From Flaviflexus huanghaiensis (lineage in GTDB: Bacteria > Actinomycetota > Actinomycetes > Actinomycetales > Actinomycetaceae), in assembly GCF_014118685.1 (NCBI RefSeq), contig NZ_JACFAK010000003.1, positions 124,001 to 188,000 on the forward strand: 64,000 nt of DNA, written 5' to 3'. Both the position numbers and the translations under genes were made by a program. The notes beneath the pieces were generated by a model. It had not been told where the DNA came from. It did not search any database and was given only the letters and a program-made list of their open reading frames with translations. Below, piece after piece: positions 49,416 through 58,138 of this stretch (its first letter is position 1; each line of letters begins with the position of its first letter).

Positions 49416-50165
49416 TCAGCTGTGGGGACTGCTCGCGAGAGGGAGCCGGTCGAAAGCCCGAGTAGCCGCCACTCCCATGAGGGCAATGAGAGGCACCGCA
49501 GTCAGTGCCGCCCACCCCCAGGTTTCCCCGCCCTCGAGAGAAAAGAGGCCGGCTGGCGAGTAGTCGCGGACACCGGGAACTGCAGAGAGCAGTGCGAGGG
49601 CGAAATAGACGCCGAGCCCGACTCCCGCGGCCCCAGCCATCGATCCCCGCAACGCCGCCCCCAGGGCAGCGGCGGCGATGAGGACCGCCATGAGAACGAG
49701 CCAGCGCAGCGCCATCGCCATCGGCGTGCCGAGCTCGCCCTCACCGAACAGGATCGCTGTCATGACGCTGTTGCCAAGGGCGCCGATGATGACCGCCACT
49801 GCGGTGATGAGAGCATTCGCGACCGCCGGGGCGAGAAGCAGGGCGCTTCTCGGCACCGGACGGGCGAGGAGGAGGGCGGCGCTACCGCTCGACAGCGGCT
49901 GGGCGATCGAGTAGGCGGCGACCATGACGGTGAGCAGGGGGATGACCTGGGAGAGGTCGCTTGCCCACTGGGCATACGCGTTCACCGACGTCGGATCGCC
50001 CCCGAGGATCTCGAGGCCGCCCCCCACAAGAGAGATGATCTGCGGCATGAGCTTCGTGATGACCGGGCCGATGAGGGCGAGGAAGATGACGACACCCGCG
50101 AGGACCGGGGCGCGCCAGGTGCGGAGCATGCCGCGCAGTTCGTGGCGGATGAGAATCCGGAACAT
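49416..50165 (-). CDS. ABC transporter permease (ABC-2 type)
   Basis: A 249-residue protein with six hydrophobic segments: APVLAGVVIFLALIGPVI, VIPLLTVMVAAYSIAQPL followed by SSGSAALLLARPVPRSALLL, and four more. The layout is that of an ABC-2 export permease. ATG at 50165 has AGGAGG upstream; in-frame extension would run through the ATPase gene. It shares one base with the ATPase stop, so the two are coupled. Last gene of the PadR operon; substrate unknown. Confidence 0.85.
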   Translation of the reverse strand: MFRILIRHELRGMLRTWRAPVLAGVVIFLALIGPVITKLMPQIISLVGGGLEILGGDPTSVNAYAQWASDLSQVIPLLTVMVAAYSIAQPLSSGSAALLLARPVPRSALLLAPAVANALITAVAVIIGALGNSVMTAILFGEGELGTPMAMALRWLVLMAVLIAAAALGAALRGSMAGAAGVGLGVYFALALLSAVPGVRDYSPAGLFSLEGGETWGWAALTAVPLIALMGVAATRAFDRLPLASSPHS

Positions 50166-51076
50166 TATCGGGCGCCTCCTGTTAGGTCGAGGAAGATATC
50201 GGCAAGACCGCGGGGATTGAGCGAGTGGAGGGCCGCCCCGGTCGCCGCGATGATCCCCGGTAACTCCCGCTGGGCAGTCTCGAGGTCGGTGACCCTCATA
50301 CCGAGCGTCTCGCGAGGACCGTTCCCCGCCCGGTTGATGCTGCGAACCCACGGCAATGCTCGCAGGTCATCGACGAGCCGGTCGATGGGGCCCGAGACAT
50401 CGAGGGACAGCCCTTGCCCCTCACGGACAAGGTCGTCCATCGACGACTGGCGCACGAGCCGGCCCTCGTTGATGATGATCGCGGAATCGCAGACTCGCTC
50501 CGCCTCGTCGAGGGAGTGGGTCGAGTAGAGCACGGTTGCTCGGCCGCGCAGGGAGCGGACGAGGTCGTGGAAGAGTCGCTGCCCCGCCGGATCGAGGGCC
50601 GAGGTCGGCTCATCGAGGATGAGGAGGCGGGGCGAGCCGACGAGGGACTGCGCGAGCCCGAGACGCTGCTTCATGCCTCGGGAGAACATGCGCACCGGCC
50701 GCCTGTTGTCTTCGAGTCCCACGGCTCGCAGGAGCGGCTCAATGACCGACGTGCTGTCGATCCTCGAGAGGCTCAATGCGAGCTCGAGCACCTCATCGGC
50801 TCTCATCCACCCCGGGAACGACGGCACGTCGGGCAGGTAGCCGATGTGGCGGCGGGCGGCGATGCTACCCGCCGGGTCACCATAGATATCGGCAGTTCCC
50901 GCGTCGGCCCCGATGAGGCCGAGGAGAATGCTGATAAGGGTGGTTTTGCCTGCCCCGTTCGGACCGACGAGGGCGCAGGCAACCCCATCCTCCAGCGCGA
51001 CAGTCAGATCGTCGAGTGCCCTCTTGTCGCCGTAGAGCTTTGTCAGCCCGGCCACGGCCAGCGCGCGCTCAGCCAT
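50165..51076 (-). CDS. ABC transporter ATP-binding protein
   Basis: A 303-residue ATPase. Walker A is VGPNGAGKTTL, the signature is SRGMKQRLGLAQSL, and Walker B is LLILDEPTSALDP; the D-loop and H-loop (YSTHSLDEAERV) follow. The C-terminal ~90 residues form the regulatory tail common in export ATPases of CcmA/YhaQ type. ATG at 51076 lies 8 bp inside the preceding gene. With the permease it should form an exporter for a drug, lipid or peptide. Confidence 0.92.
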   Translation of the reverse strand: MAERALAVAGLTKLYGDKRALDDLTVALEDGVACALVGPNGAGKTTLISILLGLIGADAGTADIYGDPAGSIAARRHIGYLPDVPSFPGWMRADEVLELALSLSRIDSTSVIEPLLRAVGLEDNRRPVRMFSRGMKQRLGLAQSLVGSPRLLILDEPTSALDPAGQRLFHDLVRSLRGRATVLYSTHSLDEAERVCDSAIIINEGRLVRQSSMDDLVREGQGLSLDVSGPIDRLVDDLRALPWVRSINRAGNGPRETLGMRVTDLETAQRELPGIIAATGAALHSLNPRGLADIFLDLTGGAR

Positions 51077-51362
51077 AGAGCGTGTCGATGATGCCGTCAT
51101 CGCCGGGCGTCGAAGACTGGCGCTGAGGAGACTCCTCCGCCATCCTCCGCTCCCGTCGGCGGAGAATGAAGAAAGTGAGCGGGCCAACGAACTGGACGAG
51201 ACAGACGAGGAACCACACGACGCGGGGGAGTCCGCCGGGCAGATGCTCGCGGTCCGTGCGAGAGACGGCGATGATACCCGCGACCATGAGGCTGAGCGAC
51301 ACCGCAGCGAGGATGCCGAGCGCGATAAGAGCGGGAGTGGACAGGTCAGCGAGCTCAGCCAT
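51069..51362 (-). CDS. PLDc_N-domain membrane protein
   Basis: A 97-residue protein with two membrane segments (ALIALGILAAVSLSLMVAGI and VVWFLVCLVQFVGPLTFFIL), the pattern of the phospholipase D N-terminal (PLDc_N) family, WxxxxxxxxxGPxxxFxxxR. Such small proteins commonly sit in PadR-ABC operons, possibly as transporter partners. ATG at 51362 overlaps the preceding gene by 8 bp. Confidence 0.75.
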   Translation of the reverse strand: MAELADLSTPALIALGILAAVSLSLMVAGIIAVSRTDREHLPGGLPRVVWFLVCLVQFVGPLTFFILRRRERRMAEESPQRQSSTPGDDGIIDTLYG

Positions 51363-52122
51363 GGAGACCGGCCTCCTTCCAGGCGGCCCGCAGACCCGCG
51401 CGGACGGGGATGAGGCCAGCGGCCAGGCCCGCCGCGGCGGGACCGACGATGAGGGAAGCGATGCCGGCAAGTGGTTGTGGACGATTGCCGAGACTCGTCG
51501 ACCGAAGGGCGAGGACCGAGACTCCGGCGCCGAGGAAGGCGAGCGAGGAGGCGTGGACGCCCCGGGCGAGCTGGTCTCCGCGATCTCTCGCACGTGCCGC
51601 CCATGCGGCGGCTCCGGCCGAGATGACGATCCCCGGCGCGAGCGCACCGAAGCGGCCCGAGAAGCGGTTCGGTCGGAAGGCGATATCCCAGCCGCTCGGC
51701 AGGCGGCCATCGGAGCGCACCGCTGCGGCGGTGCTCACGGCGATGGTGAGGGCCGCCCCCGCGAGAGGAAGCGCCCGCGTCACCTCCATGGCTCGCTCGG
51801 GCACGGCGCTGAGAACGTCGCCGTCGAGATCATCCGGCCTCATCCAGCCGAGCTTGACGGCGACCGCGGCAAGATTGACGTCCCACCCCCAGCCAATAAC
51901 CCGCCGGACGAAGATGCTTGGGTTCGCCGGATCCCACACACGCCCGTACGAGACCGGCTGGGCAGAGTCGCTGTCCAACACCATCTCCGCATATTCGGCA
52001 GGGTCTCCCAGATCCTCGGGGTCGACACCGCTGTCGAGAAGATCGAGCAGGTCGGCGAGAGCTTGAGGATTGCGACCGCGCAGATGTTCGCGCACTGCAC
52101 TGTAGAAGTTGTCGGATGTCAT
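51355..52122 (-). CDS. Hypothetical protein, DUF5808-like region
   Basis: A 255-residue protein. The N-terminal ~55 residues are acidic and helical (ALADLLDLLDSGVDPEDLGD). A central segment FVRRVIGWGWDVNLAAVAVK resembles the short DUF5808 motif often encoded beside PadR regulators. Several Ala/Gly-rich hydrophobic stretches follow (ALPLAGAALTIAVSTAAAV, ALAPGIVISAGAAAWAARA), so the C-terminal half may be membrane-embedded. It overlaps PadR by 4 bp (ATGA). Function unknown. Confidence 0.6.
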   Translation of the reverse strand: MTSDNFYSAVREHLRGRNPQALADLLDLLDSGVDPEDLGDPAEYAEMVLDSDSAQPVSYGRVWDPANPSIFVRRVIGWGWDVNLAAVAVKLGWMRPDDLDGDVLSAVPERAMEVTRALPLAGAALTIAVSTAAAVRSDGRLPSGWDIAFRPNRFSGRFGALAPGIVISAGAAAWAARARDRGDQLARGVHASSLAFLGAGVSVLALRSTSLGNRPQPLAGIASLIVGPAAAGLAAGLIPVRAGLRAAWKEAGLHG

Positions 52123-52448
52123 GCTGTTCCCTCCATCAATTCATCCATGGACGACACGAGGCTTCGCCACGTGTCGCGCTGGTCCGAGAGTTGTGCTGTG
52201 CCAGCACGTGTTAGCCGGTAGTACTTGCGGGGAGGTCCGCTGGGCGACTCCTCCCAAAACGTATCGACGTAACCGGCCGTGCCAAGCCTGGTGAGAAGCG
52301 GATAGACCGTTCCCGGGCCTGCCTCAAGCCCGTCGCGACGCGCCAGATCATCGACGACTTCGCCGCCATATTTCTCGCCGTGTCCGAGCAGCGCGAGGAT
52401 TGCGAGCTCGAGCACCCCGCGTCGGAGCTGAGAGACCTTCTTCGCCAT
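52119..52448 (-). CDS. PadR-family transcriptional regulator
   Basis: A 109-residue PadR protein: winged helix LRRGVLELAILALLGHGEKYG, recognition-helix region LEAGPGTVYPLLTRLGTAGY, and the wing SGPPRKYYRLTRAG, followed by a short C-terminal helix for dimerisation. First gene of a minus-strand operon of PadR, the DUF5808-like gene, PLDc_N, ABC ATPase and permease, all overlapping by 1-8 bp. It most likely represses its own operon and is released by a toxic ligand; an inverted repeat sits at its promoter. Confidence 0.92.
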   Translation of the reverse strand: MAKKVSQLRRGVLELAILALLGHGEKYGGEVVDDLARRDGLEAGPGTVYPLLTRLGTAGYVDTFWEESPSGPPRKYYRLTRAGTAQLSDQRDTWRSLVSSMDELMEGTA

Positions 52449-53335: not shown

Positions 53336-53386
53336 GGGCGGCACTAGTAAATTCTGCTCGCGTAGCAGTAAGGAAGGATGCCAACC

Positions 53387-53776
53387 ATGGCTAAGCTCAC
53401 CCCCGAAGAGCTCATCGAAGCTTTCAAGGAGCTCACCCTCGTCGAGCTCAACGACTTCGTCAAGAAGTTTGAAGAGGAATTCGAAGTCACCGCTGCCGCT
53501 CCGGTTGCCGCTGTTGCAGCTGCTGGCGCCCCCGCCGCCGGTGAGGCCGCCGCTGAGGAGGAGAAGTCGGAGTTCGACGTCGTCCTCGCCGCGATCGGTG
53601 ACAAGAAGGTCCAGGTCATCAAGGAGGTCCGCGCCCTCACGTCGCTCGGACTGAAGGAAGCCAAGGACCTCGTCGACTCCGCTCCCAAGGCTGTCCTTGA
53701 GGGTGTCGACAAGGAGACCGCCGACAAGGCCAAGGAGGCCCTCGAGGGCGCCGGCGCCACCGTCGAGCTCAAGTAA
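53387..53776 (+). CDS. rplL: 50S ribosomal protein L7/L12
   Basis: A 129-residue L12: N-terminal dimerisation domain ([20 protein letters not shown]), an Ala-rich hinge and the C-terminal factor-binding domain ([28 protein letters not shown]). ATG at 53387 was chosen because AAGGAAGG then has normal spacing; ATG 53378 overlaps it. Followed by a strong terminator. Confidence 0.97.
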
Positions 53777-53797
53777 CAGCTCTAACGAGCTGATTGA

Positions 53798-53838
53798 GGG
53801 GATGGATTCCGGGTTTTCCGGAGTCCATCCCCTTTTTT
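53798..53838 (+). terminator. Intrinsic terminator after rplL
   Basis: A 15-bp stem from 53798 (GGGGATGGATTCCGG) to 53832 with one G-T pair, followed by TTTTTT at 53833-53838; begins 21 bp after the rplL stop. Confidence 0.92.
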
Positions 53839-54336: not shown

Positions 54337-54825
54337 TCAGGACAGGTCACCGCGGTCACGAATGATCATCATGGCCCGCACCCGGTCGAGGATTGACATA
54401 TACGGGAGGGGATCGATGCCTGTGTCCTCGACATAGTCCGTCATGCAGTGGGATACGACCTCTCGCAGCTCCTCGGCGGTCCACGGCTTGGCGAGATAGT
54501 AGTCGAGATGAGCGTCGTTGACCGCCTTGATCGTGTCCGCGAGGTCGGCTTGGCCGGTAACAAGGACTTTTCGGGTGCGGACTGTCCTCTCGTCGCCCAT
54601 CATCTCGATAAGGAACTCGACGCCGGTCGTCCCTGGCATGCGGTGGTCGCAGAGGGCGACGGCGAGCTCATCGCCATCACGGTCGATGTCATCGATAACG
54701 CCCCAGGCGTCCTCGACATCCTCGGCGACCTCGATGCGGATGACACCAGTCAGGTCGATGAGGTCGCGTTCGAGCGCGTCGCGAACTTCCGGCTCGTCGT
54801 CGAGGATAAGTAGTGCGAGTGTCAT
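54337..54825 (-). CDS. Receiver-only response regulator
   Basis: A 162-residue protein with a receiver domain: acidic residues DDE at 9-11, phospho-acceptor Asp60 in LCDHRMPG, Thr90 in VLVTGQADL and Lys113 in YLAKPW. The TGxxDxxxxIxAVN..KPW style is usual in receivers attached to HD-GYP or cyclase outputs. Only about 40 residues follow, with no DNA-binding or enzymatic domain. It overlaps the kinase gene by 4 bp, so the kinase is its likely phospho-donor. Output may be direct protein binding, possibly to the transporter or kinase. Confidence 0.88.
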   Translation of the reverse strand: MTLALLILDDEPEVRDALERDLIDLTGVIRIEVAEDVEDAWGVIDDIDRDGDELAVALCDHRMPGTTGVEFLIEMMGDERTVRTRKVLVTGQADLADTIKAVNDAHLDYYLAKPWTAEELREVVSHCMTDYVEDTGIDPLPYMSILDRVRAMMIIRDRGDLS

Positions 54826-56705
54826 GGTCCCTCCAGAGGTAAATCGACCGTGGCGACAGTGCCGCCCGGATGAGAATCGAGAGTAATCGTGCCGCCGTGT
54901 CGTTCGACGATTGATCTGCTGATCGTCAGGCCGAGCCCCATGCCGTACTGAACGCGCCCGGCTTTCGTTGTGAATCGCGGTTCGAAGATATGTTCCAGAG
55001 TAGCGGGGTCGATGCCGGGGCCGTTGTCCGTGACCCGGACTCTCACCCAGCCTGGCCGCGGCGAGCTCGTCGTGACCGTGAGGAGGGGATTGTCGGCATC
55101 CGCGAGCGCATCGGCCGCGTTAACGATGAGATTGGTCCACACCTGTGACAGCTGGGCGGGGTGGCAGAAAATGGGCGGAAGGTCCGCATACTCCCGCTCC
55201 ACGTCGATCCCGCGAAGCCTGTGGGAGAGGAGCCTGATCGTATCCTCGATTGTCTCTCGAACCTTGATTTCGGTCAGAGAATCACCATCGGGGCGCGCGT
55301 ACGAGCGCAACGAATCGACGAGAGAATTGATCCTTGTCGACGCTGACCTAAGGTTGCGCAGTCCTGTGCCGATCGACGACGCACGCTCGACCTCTTCGAT
55401 GAGTTGGGAGCGGCGGCCGGCTGGCATCCTCGTCGGCATGACGCTCTCCAACATTGCCGCGGTTACTCCGGCGAGGCTGAGCCGCTGTGCGAGTAGAGCA
55501 TCGCCTGTTAGATCGGTCAATTGCCGACGCTCCTCGCGTACCTCTCTCGTCGAGAGAGGCGTGGAGTGAAGGGACGCGTGAAGCGCAGTACTGGCCGCTT
55601 GAAGGTCCTCGGACTCTCCCCTCTCGACAGCGAGTGTGACGTCCTCGACGAGGTGATCGACGCTTCTCATAATCGCCGCGATCGGGTTGTTCAACTCGTG
55701 AGCGACGCCCGAAGCCAACTCACCAAGCGTCGCAAACCGCGCCTGGCCCATGAGCTCGGCGCGAGCGTCTTCGAGGTGTTTGTAGGTCTCTTGCAGCTCC
55801 TCCTGTTCGCGTCTGAGCTGAGCCATGAGCTCGACCTTCTCGACCTGGATGTCTTCTGCTCGGCGAAGCCGCCTGTCAAGGGAGCGGATGAGGAGGACGG
55901 CGATAAGGAGCGCCGTTTCCGGCCGGGTTCTGATGACCCTGTTGAGCTGTTCGAACGTGAGTCTGACCCCGGTAACCTCGGTTGTCGTTCTCGACGTGAA
56001 GAACGCCTCGCGCCGATCGGTGAGGGAGAGCAGTCCGATGATTCGGCCTGTGCTGGCGTGGTGCATGAGGAGGTTGCCGTCGTGAGATTCCCGTTCGAGC
56101 GCAACTTCGCCCGCCAAGCTGAGCATGGCCTCCTCGACGGCTGTGCCCTCGATGGTGAGCCGGACCCCGGGAGGGACGGTCACTCGCGGCTGATAGCCAA
56201 GGCAATCGTCGATGCCGGCGACGATCTGCGCCATGACCTCATCGTCCGACAGGGGAGTGGAGAAAATGAACGTCTCTTTCGTCGGCGCATGGCGGACGGT
56301 GTCGAGGCTGCTACTCTCCGCGAAGCGTCGCACCTGATCGGCCATGTCCTGGAGAAAGAGCTCAGAGTCGAGGTTGTCTGTATGAACGATGAGGTCGAGC
56401 TTCCCTCGGTCGGCGAGTCGTGCAACACCATCGACGCTCGGTGAGCTTGACAGAAGGACGACACGGACGGTCGGAAAGCGATCGACAATGGGGACGAGCA
56501 CCGCGTCTGGATTGCCCTCTGAGGACGGAAAACTTGCGCACACGTAGACAAGGAGATCATCGGGGGCAAGCCCGTCGAGCCACTCCTCGGCGGCGGCTGC
56601 GGTCGGCAGATGGACGACAGTGCACCTGCAGGGGTGGGAGAGGAGCCGGGACACCGCACGATGGGCGTTCTGGCTGCTCCCAATGATGAGACCCCACGAC
56701 GTCAT
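54822..56705 (-). CDS. Soluble histidine kinase with pseudo-receiver and cyclic-nucleotide-binding-like domains
   Basis: A 627-residue kinase without membrane spans. Residues ~1-130 resemble a receiver fold (LLVYVCASFP where the Asp would be; VRVVLLSSSP; LDLIVHTDNL) but lack the phospho-acceptor. Residues ~175-282 resemble a cyclic-nucleotide-binding domain (VPPGVRLTIEGTAVEEAMLS, GRIIGLLSLTDRREAFF, then FEQLNRVIRTRPETALL), with no canonical GE...RxA phosphate cassette. A coiled coil (~283-320) leads to His336 in GVAHELNNPIAAIM and an ATPase domain with NLIVNAADALAD, DNGPGID and GMGLGLTIS. ATG at 56705 overlaps the transporter stop; frame further upstream is antisense to the transporter. Confidence 0.85.
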   Translation of the reverse strand: MTSWGLIIGSSQNAHRAVSRLLSHPCRCTVVHLPTAAAAEEWLDGLAPDDLLVYVCASFPSSEGNPDAVLVPIVDRFPTVRVVLLSSSPSVDGVARLADRGKLDLIVHTDNLDSELFLQDMADQVRRFAESSSLDTVRHAPTKETFIFSTPLSDDEVMAQIVAGIDDCLGYQPRVTVPPGVRLTIEGTAVEEAMLSLAGEVALERESHDGNLLMHHASTGRIIGLLSLTDRREAFFTSRTTTEVTGVRLTFEQLNRVIRTRPETALLIAVLLIRSLDRRLRRAEDIQVEKVELMAQLRREQEELQETYKHLEDARAELMGQARFATLGELASGVAHELNNPIAAIMRSVDHLVEDVTLAVERGESEDLQAASTALHASLHSTPLSTREVREERRQLTDLTGDALLAQRLSLAGVTAAMLESVMPTRMPAGRRSQLIEEVERASSIGTGLRNLRSASTRINSLVDSLRSYARPDGDSLTEIKVRETIEDTIRLLSHRLRGIDVEREYADLPPIFCHPAQLSQVWTNLIVNAADALADADNPLLTVTTSSPRPGWVRVRVTDNGPGIDPATLEHIFEPRFTTKAGRVQYGMGLGLTISRSIVERHGGTITLDSHPGGTVATVDLPLEGP

Positions 56706-58138
56706 ACGAGCCCCATGAGCTCCCATAGTGGCGGCATGGCGAAAATGAGGAGAAGAGTTGCTGCGAGGCCGACGATGACGCCGACGATCGCCATGTTCTT
56801 GACCGACACTTGGCCCGTCGAGTAGGCGATCGCATTCGGTGGTGTTGAGATCGGCAAGGACATGCCGAAGGATGTCGCAACCGCGACGACGACAGCGACG
56901 ACGATGACCCCGATACTGTCGAGCGAGACCGCGAGCGTCACCGCGAGGGGGACGAGGAGGTTGGCGGCCGCCGAGTGGGAAATGACATTGGCGAGGCCGA
57001 GACCGATCATTCCGAAAACAAAGAGAAGGAGGGTGGGGGAGAAGGTCTCCCATGGGATCGAGTCGACCATCCACACGTCGAGGCCGGTCGCTCCAACGCC
57101 GGTGCCGAGGGCGATGCCACCCGAGACGAGCCAGAGGACGGGCCAGTCGAGTTTTTTGACGTCCGCGCCTTCCATGACTCGCAGAGACAGCAGTGCGACA
57201 ACGGGGAAGAAGCCGACGGTATTCGACGAGACACCGTGGAACGGCTCTGTCATCCACAGGAAGATTGTGAGGCCCGTAATGACGTAAAACAGCTTCGCAT
57301 TGCGGGACGTTTCCCAGTTCTTTCCGAGCTCGACCTCGATCTTCCCCTCCTTCGGCAGGAAGAGTGCGCTGAGCAGGAACCACGACGCGAAGAGGACGAC
57401 AAGCACAAGCGGGAGCGCCATGATCATCCACTCGACGAAGGAGACGTGGATGCCGCGCTCCTCAAGAGCGCCGAGCGCGATCGCGTTCGGGGGAGTGCCG
57501 ACCGGCGTGCCGATGCCGCCAACATTCGCCGCGAGCGGGATCGACAGCGCGAGACCGGCCTTCGATTTGGCGTCCTTCAGGCTCGCGATGATCGGCATGA
57601 TGACTGCGAACATCGTCGCCGTCGTCGCCGTGTTCGACATGAACATCGACAGCAGAGCCGTGATGATCATGAGCCCGAGGATCGTGATCCTGATGGAACC
57701 GGCGAAGGGTTTGAGAAGGACGGCGGCGATGTTGCGATCGAGACGGTACTTCTCCGCGCCCTCGGCAATCATGAACCCGCCAAGGAACAGGATGATGACC
57801 GGGTTTGCTAGCGCGGCGAAATAATCGGAGGCTGGTAACGCGTCGACGGTCCCGCCAGGGTCGATGATGGCGCCGCTTGACACCATGAGGACCTGGAGGA
57901 AGATGACGAGGACCGCCGTTGCGACCAGGGGGATCGCTTCGGTGATCCAAAAGACGATCGCGAGGAAGAAGATGGCGAGCATTCGCTCGCCGGGTTCCTC
58001 AAGGCCGGGGATGTCGATAACGAGGGGGAACGTGAAGGCAATAAGTCCCGTGACCAGTCCAACGAGTTGGGTCCGGGAGAGGGAGCTTTCTTTCCTGCGC
58101 CGCGTTCGAGCCGGGGCTTCATTGACTGGCTTGCTCAT
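56702..58138 (-). CDS. SLC13/DASS-family anion transporter
   Basis: A 478-residue transporter with about eleven membrane segments. The first motif MSNTATTATM (Ser168-Asn169-Thr170) and the hairpin motifs TPVGTPPNAIALG and ISTPPNAIAYSTG (431-442) identify the divalent anion:Na+ symporter family, whose members take up dicarboxylates, citrate, sulfate or phosphate. The second half-motif reads SHSAAANLLVP (388-398) where SNT is usual. First gene of a three-gene operon with the kinase and regulator; it is divergent from rpoB across about 490 bp. Confidence 0.9.
   Translation of the reverse strand: MSKPVNEAPARTRRRKESSLSRTQLVGLVTGLIAFTFPLVIDIPGLEEPGERMLAIFFLAIVFWITEAIPLVATAVLVIFLQVLMVSSGAIIDPGGTVDALPASDYFAALANPVIILFLGGFMIAEGAEKYRLDRNIAAVLLKPFAGSIRITILGLMIITALLSMFMSNTATTATMFAVIMPIIASLKDAKSKAGLALSIPLAANVGGIGTPVGTPPNAIALGALEERGIHVSFVEWMIMALPLVLVVLFASWFLLSALFLPKEGKIEVELGKNWETSRNAKLFYVITGLTIFLWMTEPFHGVSSNTVGFFPVVALLSLRVMEGADVKKLDWPVLWLVSGGIALGTGVGATGLDVWMVDSIPWETFSPTLLLFVFGMIGLGLANVISHSAAANLLVPLAVTLAVSLDSIGVIVVAVVVAVATSFGMSLPISTPPNAIAYSTGQVSVKNMAIVGVIVGLAATLLLIFAMPPLWELMGLV

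Follow-up and report, generated by a model that had tools for sequence, protein, structure and literature searches.

A conserved and apparently undescribed module of an SLC13-family transporter, a soluble histidine kinase and a stand-alone receiver in Actinomycetota

In this work we looked at a 64,000-nucleotide stretch of the Flaviflexus huanghaiensis genome (the window), where three open reading frames on the minus strand encode a DASS/SLC13 transporter, a soluble histidine kinase and a stand-alone receiver. The trio is a real and apparently undescribed transporter-linked two-component module, and its distribution shows that the three genes are inherited together as one self-contained unit. 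The constant travel of the transporter with a soluble kinase and a switch that does not bind DNA suggests that the switch controls the transporter and not its gene. The explanation that we prefer, to which we give a probability of roughly 45%, is a post-translational valve that would be built from the transporter, the receiver and the kinase, the latter with a decoy of this receiver. In the open-access literature, among the matches listed and as judged by titles and the beginnings of abstracts, an operon of SLC13 transporter, kinase and receiver is not described. The features are as follows.

56702..58138, minus strand: first operon gene, a DASS/SLC13 anion transporter of 478 aa (TIGR00785, Na_sulph_symp)
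56702..56705, minus strand: 4-bp overlap, ATGA, between the transporter stop and the kinase start (sequence)
54822..56705, minus strand: soluble histidine kinase of 627 aa (HisKA and HATPase_c exceed their cut-offs)
56301..56705, minus strand: degenerate receiver (kinase residues 1-135), related to the free regulator (hhalign)
55926..56183, minus strand: cyclic-nucleotide-binding-like domain (kinase residues 175-260) that lacks the FGE glutamate (Pfam cNMP_binding)
55296..55727, minus strand: phospho-acceptor hairpin (kinase residues 327-470) that carries His336 (HELNNP) and has an insertion of ~90 residues (HisKA; extent of the insertion read off the sequence)
54831..55160, minus strand: kinase residues 516-625, ATP-binding catalytic domain (HATPase_c, 90.7 bits)
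54822..54825, minus strand: 4-bp overlap, ATGA, between the kinase stop and the regulator start (sequence)
54337..54825, minus strand: stand-alone receiver, 162 aa, C-terminal tail predicted helical (Response_reg)
54646..54648, minus strand: codon of Asp60, the predicted phosphorylation site (invariant in 34/34 regulators)
53378-53776, plus strand: rplL (Pfam Ribosomal_L12)
from 58528, plus strand: rpoB reading frame

The original prediction described three genes that overlap by 4 bp each, and this layout is borne out, as all three frames are open and both junctions read ATGA. The 4-bp overlap between kinase and regulator is found in 22 of 37 loci, with starts chosen by a script. The survey comprised a family sample of 213 Actinomycetaceae genomes and a phylum sample of 395 other genomes of Actinomycetota; the whole-genome searches covered this phylum, while GTDB contigs were covered by one pattern scan that reaches close relatives only. 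The kinase is present in 98 of the 213 family genomes, the receiver adjoins it in all 98 and the transporter lies beside it in 96, so that the occurrence of the trio beyond this strain is confirmed (96/98 in the family, 14/395 in the phylum sample). The kinase directly follows the transporter in 93 of the 96 trios, and three genomes show the order kinase-receiver-transporter with the trio still together. In the phylum sample a long-matching kinase is found in 14 genomes, which are also the ones that hold this transporter subfamily; each of them shows the order transporter-kinase-receiver, and the trio reaches four families outside its own class. This order is conserved far past one strain, and the objection that the module belongs to a single strain therefore fails. 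Thirteen plasmid records match the kinase; those listed span 27-51% of it, from residue 307 on, and none of the records covers 80%.

In the window the trio is flanked by rplL and rpoB, as had been noticed before, and the flanking itself is correct. The significance given to it does not hold: in the sequence retrieved around each trio, rpoB appears for 5 of 6 genomes from the genus and for 0 of 31 other loci, so the site is a lineage accident and we rejected a functional role for it. A terminator-like hairpin follows rplL (53796-53834, plus strand), a weak signal in a scan that found 3 such sites where 2.9 are expected by shuffling; for the minus strand it gave no promoter-like site. Outside the trio, no gene is widespread at the 37 loci. 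A first count considered families in at least 3 loci and used non-overlapping ORFs, so that genes may be masked by long antisense frames. A recount of all ORFs of at least 80 aa outside the trio added a few families shared by loci inside and outside the Actinomycetaceae, none above 5 loci except a broad ABC-ATPase cluster (14 loci); this cluster is the widest shared family (13/23 and 1/14), followed by one with 4 and 1.

The regulator was predicted to lack an output or DNA-binding domain, and this agrees with the domain search, where Response_reg (53.8 bits) is the sole Pfam domain above cut-off in its 162 residues. The residues D10, E11, D60, T90 and K113 are invariant in all 34 aligned regulators. 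Five AlphaFold models of the receiver gave pLDDT values from 44.3 to 83.8, and the best of them (83.8), which was used for the tail helix only, places a helix at residues 148-157 after the helix at 117-135.

The assignment of the transporter to SLC13/DASS was also correct. The protein scores 268 bits against the curated TIGR00785 model (DASS), above its cut-off of 198.6, and 157.7 bits against Pfam Na_sulph_symp, and the closest solved structures are transporters of the NadC family (VcINDY-type; best E 7.9e-41). DASS transporters carry a second copy of the SNT motif. In our alignment the first motif reads SNT in 33 of 33 rows, and the second reads SHS in 20 and SNS in 2 of the 22 Actinomycetaceae rows, and SNS in 7, SSS in 2 and SNT in 2 of 11 rows of other classes; the motif is named for DASS/SLC13 transporters in the excerpt available of PMC5318444. 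One genome (G021) has a second transporter copy that lies behind fumarase-type genes (PF05681, PF05683), which is a hint only on the substrate, for which a DASS carrier would be expected to take di- or tricarboxylates or sulfate in a Na-coupled manner.

The kinase was described as lacking a membrane span and as cytosolic. No 19-residue Kyte-Doolittle window exceeds 1.6 (maximum 1.5) and we therefore assign it no span; five of 56 relatives have a single window over this value, and its place differs between them. The soluble character thus stands, but the earlier description omitted two domains, the degenerate receiver and the cyclic-nucleotide-like domain. The catalytic domain is above the Pfam cut-off, while HisKA is matched at residues 327-355 only (27.8 bits, cut-off 26.9); at E <= 0.01, HATPase_c is found in 35 and HisKA in 31 of 35 kinases. 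The residues H336, E337, N340, N525, N529, D560, G562, G564, G588 and G590 are unchanged in all 35, and the stretch H336 E337 N339 N340 P341 is invariant; because of the HExxN motif the protein is probably both kinase and phosphatase. An AlphaFold model of the kinase from 5 sequences (mean pLDDT 48) was too low for use.

Three points are new: this kinase holds a degenerate receiver that is related to the free one, its cyclic-nucleotide-like domain lacks the usual glutamate, and its relatives in other families of the order adjoin receivers that are fused to thioredoxin-reductase-like proteins. The degenerate receiver aligns with the regulator family at an hhalign probability of 99.1% (98.5% without the Vibrio rows), with 13% and 12% identity, respectively; it is found at the N-terminus of 27 of 35 kinases, is missing in 8, and has mostly lost the phospho-Asp and the Lys. 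The phosphate-binding cassette of cyclic-nucleotide sensors carries the FGE glutamate and an arginine. In the F. huanghaiensis kinase the cNMP_binding match (19.4 bits) is under the cut-off of 27.5 and the cassette reads GLLSL; the domain is matched in 34 of 35 kinases at E <= 0.01 (best E 7e-16), the glutamate is present in 0 of 35 and the arginine is partly kept, by eye. Cyclase-family matches occur in 18 of 23 kinase-bearing genomes, so a cyclic-nucleotide ligand could be made. We considered the kinase as a true sensor of cAMP or cGMP and did not adopt this, since the cassette glutamate is missing in all 35 kinases.

The valve may work as follows. The kinase would sense an internal signal, which may be the state of the transporter or a ligand that binds its cyclic-nucleotide-like domain, and would set the phosphorylation of the free receiver at Asp60. 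Its dead receiver domain would be a decoy of the partner, holding the free receiver or competing with it. The free receiver would dock to the transporter from the cytoplasmic side, and the docked receiver would raise or lower the anion flux fast, as a post-translational switch instead of a transcriptional one. The specific statement that the single-domain regulator binds and gates the DASS/SLC13 transporter by phosphorylation, tuned by the kinase through the dead receiver copy, is put forward tentatively.

Some loci depart from the trio. The G021 genome has a second transporter-receiver pair, 50 bp apart and without a kinase, in which the receiver residues are intact, and the one kinase of this type in the genome belongs to the other copy; such a pair favours the receiver acting on the transporter, and it is a single case. 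The transporter stands alone in 5 genomes, for which the tree requires 3 or more separate events, and it can therefore work without kinase and receiver. The kinase and receiver occur without an adjacent transporter in 2 of the 98 Actinomycetaceae genomes and in Vibrio, and the receiver may therefore serve targets besides the transporter. Since 8 of 35 kinases have no degenerate receiver, the decoy step cannot be essential everywhere.

Another explanation, which we regard as doubtful, is that the transporter itself is the sensor: substrate flux or binding would alter its contact with the kinase, and the phosphorylated receiver would act on targets elsewhere. Transporter-kinase fusions of such logic are known, namely CbrA and other SLC5-STAC kinases (available text of PMC13022988 and PMC7918813), and both the usual position of the kinase directly after the transporter and its lack of a membrane sensor of its own fit this idea. 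However, kinase and receiver outlive the transporter in the genomes mentioned above, the second copy in G021 keeps the receiver and not the kinase, and in the three genomes of altered order it is the receiver that adjoins the transporter.

Single-domain receivers often serve in relays, as do Spo0F and DivK, and here too the receiver could hand its phosphate to, or bind, an unlinked kinase, phosphotransfer protein or transcription factor that affects transporter expression or metabolism. The receiver adjoins the kinase wherever the latter was found (98/98 and 14/14), also in the pairs without transporter, which would suit a relay. We consider it unlikely, as the constant linkage to one transporter subfamily (96/98, 14/14) needs a reason and no gene of such a partner recurs widely at the 37 loci, although an unlinked partner would escape there. 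It is quite improbable that kinase and receiver act on transporter expression through an unrecognised DNA-binding partner, as in DctBD, CitAB and KguSR, for while the DASS-linked KguS/KguR of uropathogenic E. coli does work by transcription (available text of PMC3694859), the AAA+ and helix-turn-helix domains of KguR and the two predicted membrane helices of KguS have no counterpart here, and no DNA-binding gene recurs widely at the 37 loci.

We also looked for traces of contact between the proteins. Background-corrected mutual information was calculated for 100 of 105 loci (effective number 57; L052, L055, L092, L122 and L123 left out, L052 and L123 being one genome). The positive control failed, as no clean kinase-receiver interface emerged; receiver-transporter pairs score similar to or higher than this control, which has no clean signal itself, and for that reason we do not interpret them. 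The distances of the three trees correlate at 0.74 to 0.81 in the full set and at 0.65 to 0.79 when restricted to the family, which is expected from co-inheritance and says nothing for contact. Relaxed evolution of the receiver after loss of the transporter was dropped, as the two genomes disagree in sign (-3.6 vs +2.3 percentage points).

Two-component systems are usually taken for gene switches, while here the sole constant partner is a membrane carrier. If the valve is true, it would be a direct phosphorelay control of transport that is testable with three small genes, and would add a regulated step to the uptake of organic anions in almost half of the Actinomycetaceae genomes surveyed (98/213) and in four families outside the class. 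With its degenerate receiver, the kinase would be a natural example of an enzyme that contains a decoy of the protein it acts on. A term search of a 2023 review on the dynamic control of bacterial transporter activity finds no mention of response regulators, two-component systems or histidine kinases (PMC10710835).

Among related systems, the closest kinase core found in the order is that of a cyclic-nucleotide-domain kinase in other families of the order (35-40% identity, from residue ~277 or 307 to 627). Its partner receiver is 34-41% identical to ours over 116-132 residues and forms the N-terminal part of a 406-624 aa ORF (5 loci), a fusion with a thioredoxin-reductase-like flavoprotein; the two fusions scanned show Response_reg and Pyr_redox_2, and the 5 loci contain no SLC13 match. 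The orphan pair of Vibrio (V. chagasii and two more, L036-L038) shares the kinase layout of degenerate receiver, cyclic-nucleotide-like domain and kinase; this kinase is ~30% identical over most of its length and is followed by a stand-alone receiver with 42-44% identity, with no SLC13 match in the 9-14 kb fetched.

KguS/KguR and the DASS transporter C5038 of uropathogenic E. coli are likewise a two-component pair linked to a DASS dicarboxylate carrier. According to the available text of PMC3694859 and PMC5318444, KguS has two predicted membrane helices, KguR has AAA+ and helix-turn-helix domains and binds the transporter promoter, and their genes adjoin catabolic genes. The trio, in contrast, has a soluble kinase, a bare receiver and no recurring catabolic genes, and neither the membrane-bound sensor kinase nor the DNA-binding response regulator of systems like DctBD, CitAB and KguSR was found in it. 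CbrA/CbrB, CrbS/CrbR and other SLC5-STAC kinases share with the trio a secondary transporter that is coupled to a histidine kinase. The Pfam table of our 35 kinases has no SLC5 entry, no STAC entry, provided that Pfam includes a model for it, and one weak MCU match in a single kinase. In the SLC5-STAC kinases a single polypeptide with a STAC domain combines transporter and kinase, and genes are the targets that have been described (available text of PMC13022988 and PMC7918813), whereas the trio consists of three separate proteins that are encoded by overlapping genes, with a transporter of the SLC13 family.

Three genes on the minus strand of the window form successive open reading frames, adjacent ones overlapping by 4 bp as the original prediction had described, with ATGA as the sequence of each overlap:

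56702-58138, minus strand: DASS/SLC13 transporter, 478 aa, first of the three genes
54822-56705, minus strand: histidine kinase, 627 aa, second gene
54337-54825, minus strand: receiver, 162 aa, third gene

This trio is a real, widespread module. Among 213 Actinomycetaceae genomes the kinase is found in 98, from 18 of 36 genera (E <= 1e-40), the receiver in 101 (E <= 1e-12) and the transporter subfamily in 101 (E <= 1e-60), counts that take in damaged, split and partial copies such as the short matches in genomes G198 and G211 and the truncated transporter and kinase of G174. With adjacency defined as the same strand and a distance of at most 2.5 kb, the receiver adjoins the kinase in all 98 kinase-bearing genomes and the transporter does so in 96, only G020 and G054 having a kinase with no transporter nearby. 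The order is transporter–kinase–receiver in 93 of the 96 trios and kinase–receiver–transporter in three, all of genus g21, and all three proteins are near full length in 100 of the 105 loci read completely. A search for the three-gene order across Actinomycetota, as originally proposed, showed that it is not a peculiarity of one strain. In 395 genomes sampled elsewhere in the phylum the kinase was matched in 14 (E <= 2.1e-91), the transporter subfamily (E <= 1e-60) occurs in exactly the same 14 and in no others, and the order is transporter–kinase–receiver in every one, with a stop codon breaking the transporter frame in G570. These genomes belong to four families beyond the class of Flaviflexus (f32, f63, f49 and f45); in other families of its own class no sampled genome matched kinase or transporter at these limits, and the top transporter match in 38 genomes of the order's other families has an E value of 7e-32. 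A further 20 genomes match the kinase only from about residue 225 onward (E 6.8e-45 or weaker), and the transporter is absent at both loci read among them.

Besides the trio, no gene recurs widely at the 37 loci whose neighbouring ORFs of at least 80 aa were compared (14 outside the family and 23 inside it, of which two lack the transporter). The most widespread family common to both groups is an ABC-ATPase cluster (13 in-family loci and one outside), which is broad and linked by loose similarity; the next is found at four in-family loci and one outside, and the remainder at four loci or fewer. One shared pair, from one in-family and one outside locus, starts like what we take from its sequence to be a LacI-type regulator. 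Neighbours are more often common to near relatives, with rpoB at five loci. In the window, genes for a PadR-type regulator, a DUF5808 protein and an ABC ATPase (50165-52448, minus strand) adjoin rplJ-rplL, a set retained in some near relatives. Immediately after rplL lies a terminator-like hairpin of 18 pairs followed by a T run (53796-53834, plus strand), although the terminator scan overall was not above chance.

The kinase had been proposed to be soluble, and hydrophobicity windows indeed give no membrane span in it; a single window above 1.6 appears in 5 of 56 relatives, at varying positions. Its first 135 residues form a degenerate receiver that shares its origin with the free regulator (hhalign 99.1%, 13% identity; 98.5% and 12% without the Vibrio rows on the query side), a domain found in 27 of the 35 kinases read. 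In these 27 the residues of a working receiver are mostly missing: Asp is aligned to D60 in two, Lys to K113 in two and Asp to D10 in one; Thr or Ser is retained at T90 in 26. Of 35 kinases, 34 have a match to the cyclic-nucleotide-binding family (E <= 0.01) at residues 175-260, the window's own match being weak (19.4 bits against a cut-off of 27.5). The FGE glutamate, a motif of cyclic-nucleotide-binding domains, is found in none of the 35, and His215 of this domain is invariant in all. HELNNP, which contains His336, lies in the phospho-acceptor hairpin, and the hairpin also holds an insertion of roughly 90 residues. All 35 kinases share His336, Glu337, Asn340 and residues of the N, G1, F and G2 boxes without exception. 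HExxN is a motif linked to phosphatase activity, and its presence suggests that the kinase may act as a phosphatase as well.

In the receiver only one domain scores above cut-off, in line with the predicted lack of an output domain. All 34 receivers compared, two of them from Vibrio, have Asp10, Glu11, Asp60, Thr90, Lys113 and Trp115 unchanged. AlphaFold predicts an extra helix in its tail beyond helix 5 (residues 148-157; best model pLDDT 83.8, with five models spanning 44.3 to 83.8), which is a candidate docking element. The transporter scores 268 bits against the DASS model (cut-off 198.6), and its closest solved structures are NadC-family (VcINDY-type) transporters (E 7.9e-41). At its second SNT motif, 20 of the 22 Actinomycetaceae rows read SHS and all 11 rows of other classes read SNS, SSS or SNT, a variation that may alter substrate or ion coupling.

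Among the departures from the trio, five genomes (G166, G033, G167, G168 and G023) have the transporter without kinase and receiver, and G183 adds a transporter fragment at a contig edge. On the transporter tree, built by a quick method with SH-aLRT as the only branch support, the five solo transporters need three separate changes; provided that the trio is the ancestral state, kinase and receiver would therefore have been lost jointly on some three occasions. G017 has tandem transporters sharing one kinase and one receiver, G030 a remnant locus, and G179 a fourth kinase-less receiver, a weak match (31%) inside a 558-residue frame. In G038 the transporter start is fused to the kinase end and the receiver is retained but shortened, close to an assembly gap. 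This locus (L067:7353-8597) and that of G174 (L122:3759-5622), from two genera, both lack the transporter end and kinase start and keep the receiver, which looks like internal deletion. The second copy in G021 (C5:150746-152658) consists of a transporter, branching within the trio lineages, and a receiver 50 bp apart with no kinase; upstream of the two lie fumarase-type genes (PF05681, PF05683) and a further DASS gene. The row at this locus (L066:3508-8659) reads fumarase-type alpha, beta, DASS, trio-subfamily DASS and receiver, with an AraC-type regulator upstream.

What is established is co-inheritance, an intact phosphorelay pair, the lack of an output domain and of any other widely recurring partner. 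We infer that the transporter is the receiver's target, on which the receiver would act directly; the strongest hint is the one case of the second G021 transporter, which retains the receiver and not the kinase. Mutual information across 100 trios (effective number 57) showed no clean interface even for the kinase–receiver pair used as control, and a comparison of receiver rates after transporter loss gave opposite signs in the two genomes concerned. Another option is that the transporter serves as the sensor, with the signal flowing the opposite way. This would agree with known transceptors and with the side-by-side position of transporter and kinase in 93 of the 96 trios; we consider it unlikely. 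A relay from the receiver to an unlinked target seems somewhat less probable still, and plain transcription control is improbable.

Vibrio genomes encode a kinase, about 30% identical, that shares the domain order of the trio's kinase, with its degenerate receiver and cyclic-nucleotide-like domain; the gene after it encodes a stand-alone receiver with 42-44% identity (L036:1293-3726, L037:5755-8188 and L038:5755-8188), and no SLC13 gene was found in the fetched stretches around these pairs. The nearest kinases in the order's other families, also cyclic-nucleotide-like, adjoin receivers within long ORFs of 406-624 residues (five loci, L071-L075). Since such pairs occur without the transporter, kinase and receiver look like an older core, with the transporter as its constant partner in these Actinomycetota. 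In L071 and L072, the two scanned, the receiver ORF combines Response_reg with a thioredoxin-reductase-like Pyr_redox_2 domain; judged by these domains, such fusions are another two-component kind without DNA-binding output, and a targeted literature search gave no clearly related description of the L071-L075 arrangement.

All parts of the trio come from known families, and the combination of an SLC13 carrier, a soluble decoy-receiver kinase and a bare receiver appears undescribed: no description was found among the literature matches listed (titles and abstracts of open-access papers), and the main text of a 2023 review on dynamic modulation of bacterial transporter activity does not contain 'response regulator', 'two-component' or 'histidine kinase' (PMC10710835). 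In SLC5-STAC kinases, carrier and kinase are fused (PMC13022988, PMC7918813), whereas the trio has separate genes for the SLC13 carrier and the kinase. The KguS/KguR system resembles the trio in tying a two-component pair to a DASS carrier; yet there the kinase has membrane helices and the regulator that controls the carrier binds DNA (PMC3694859, PMC5318444), in contrast to the soluble kinase and bare receiver of the trio.
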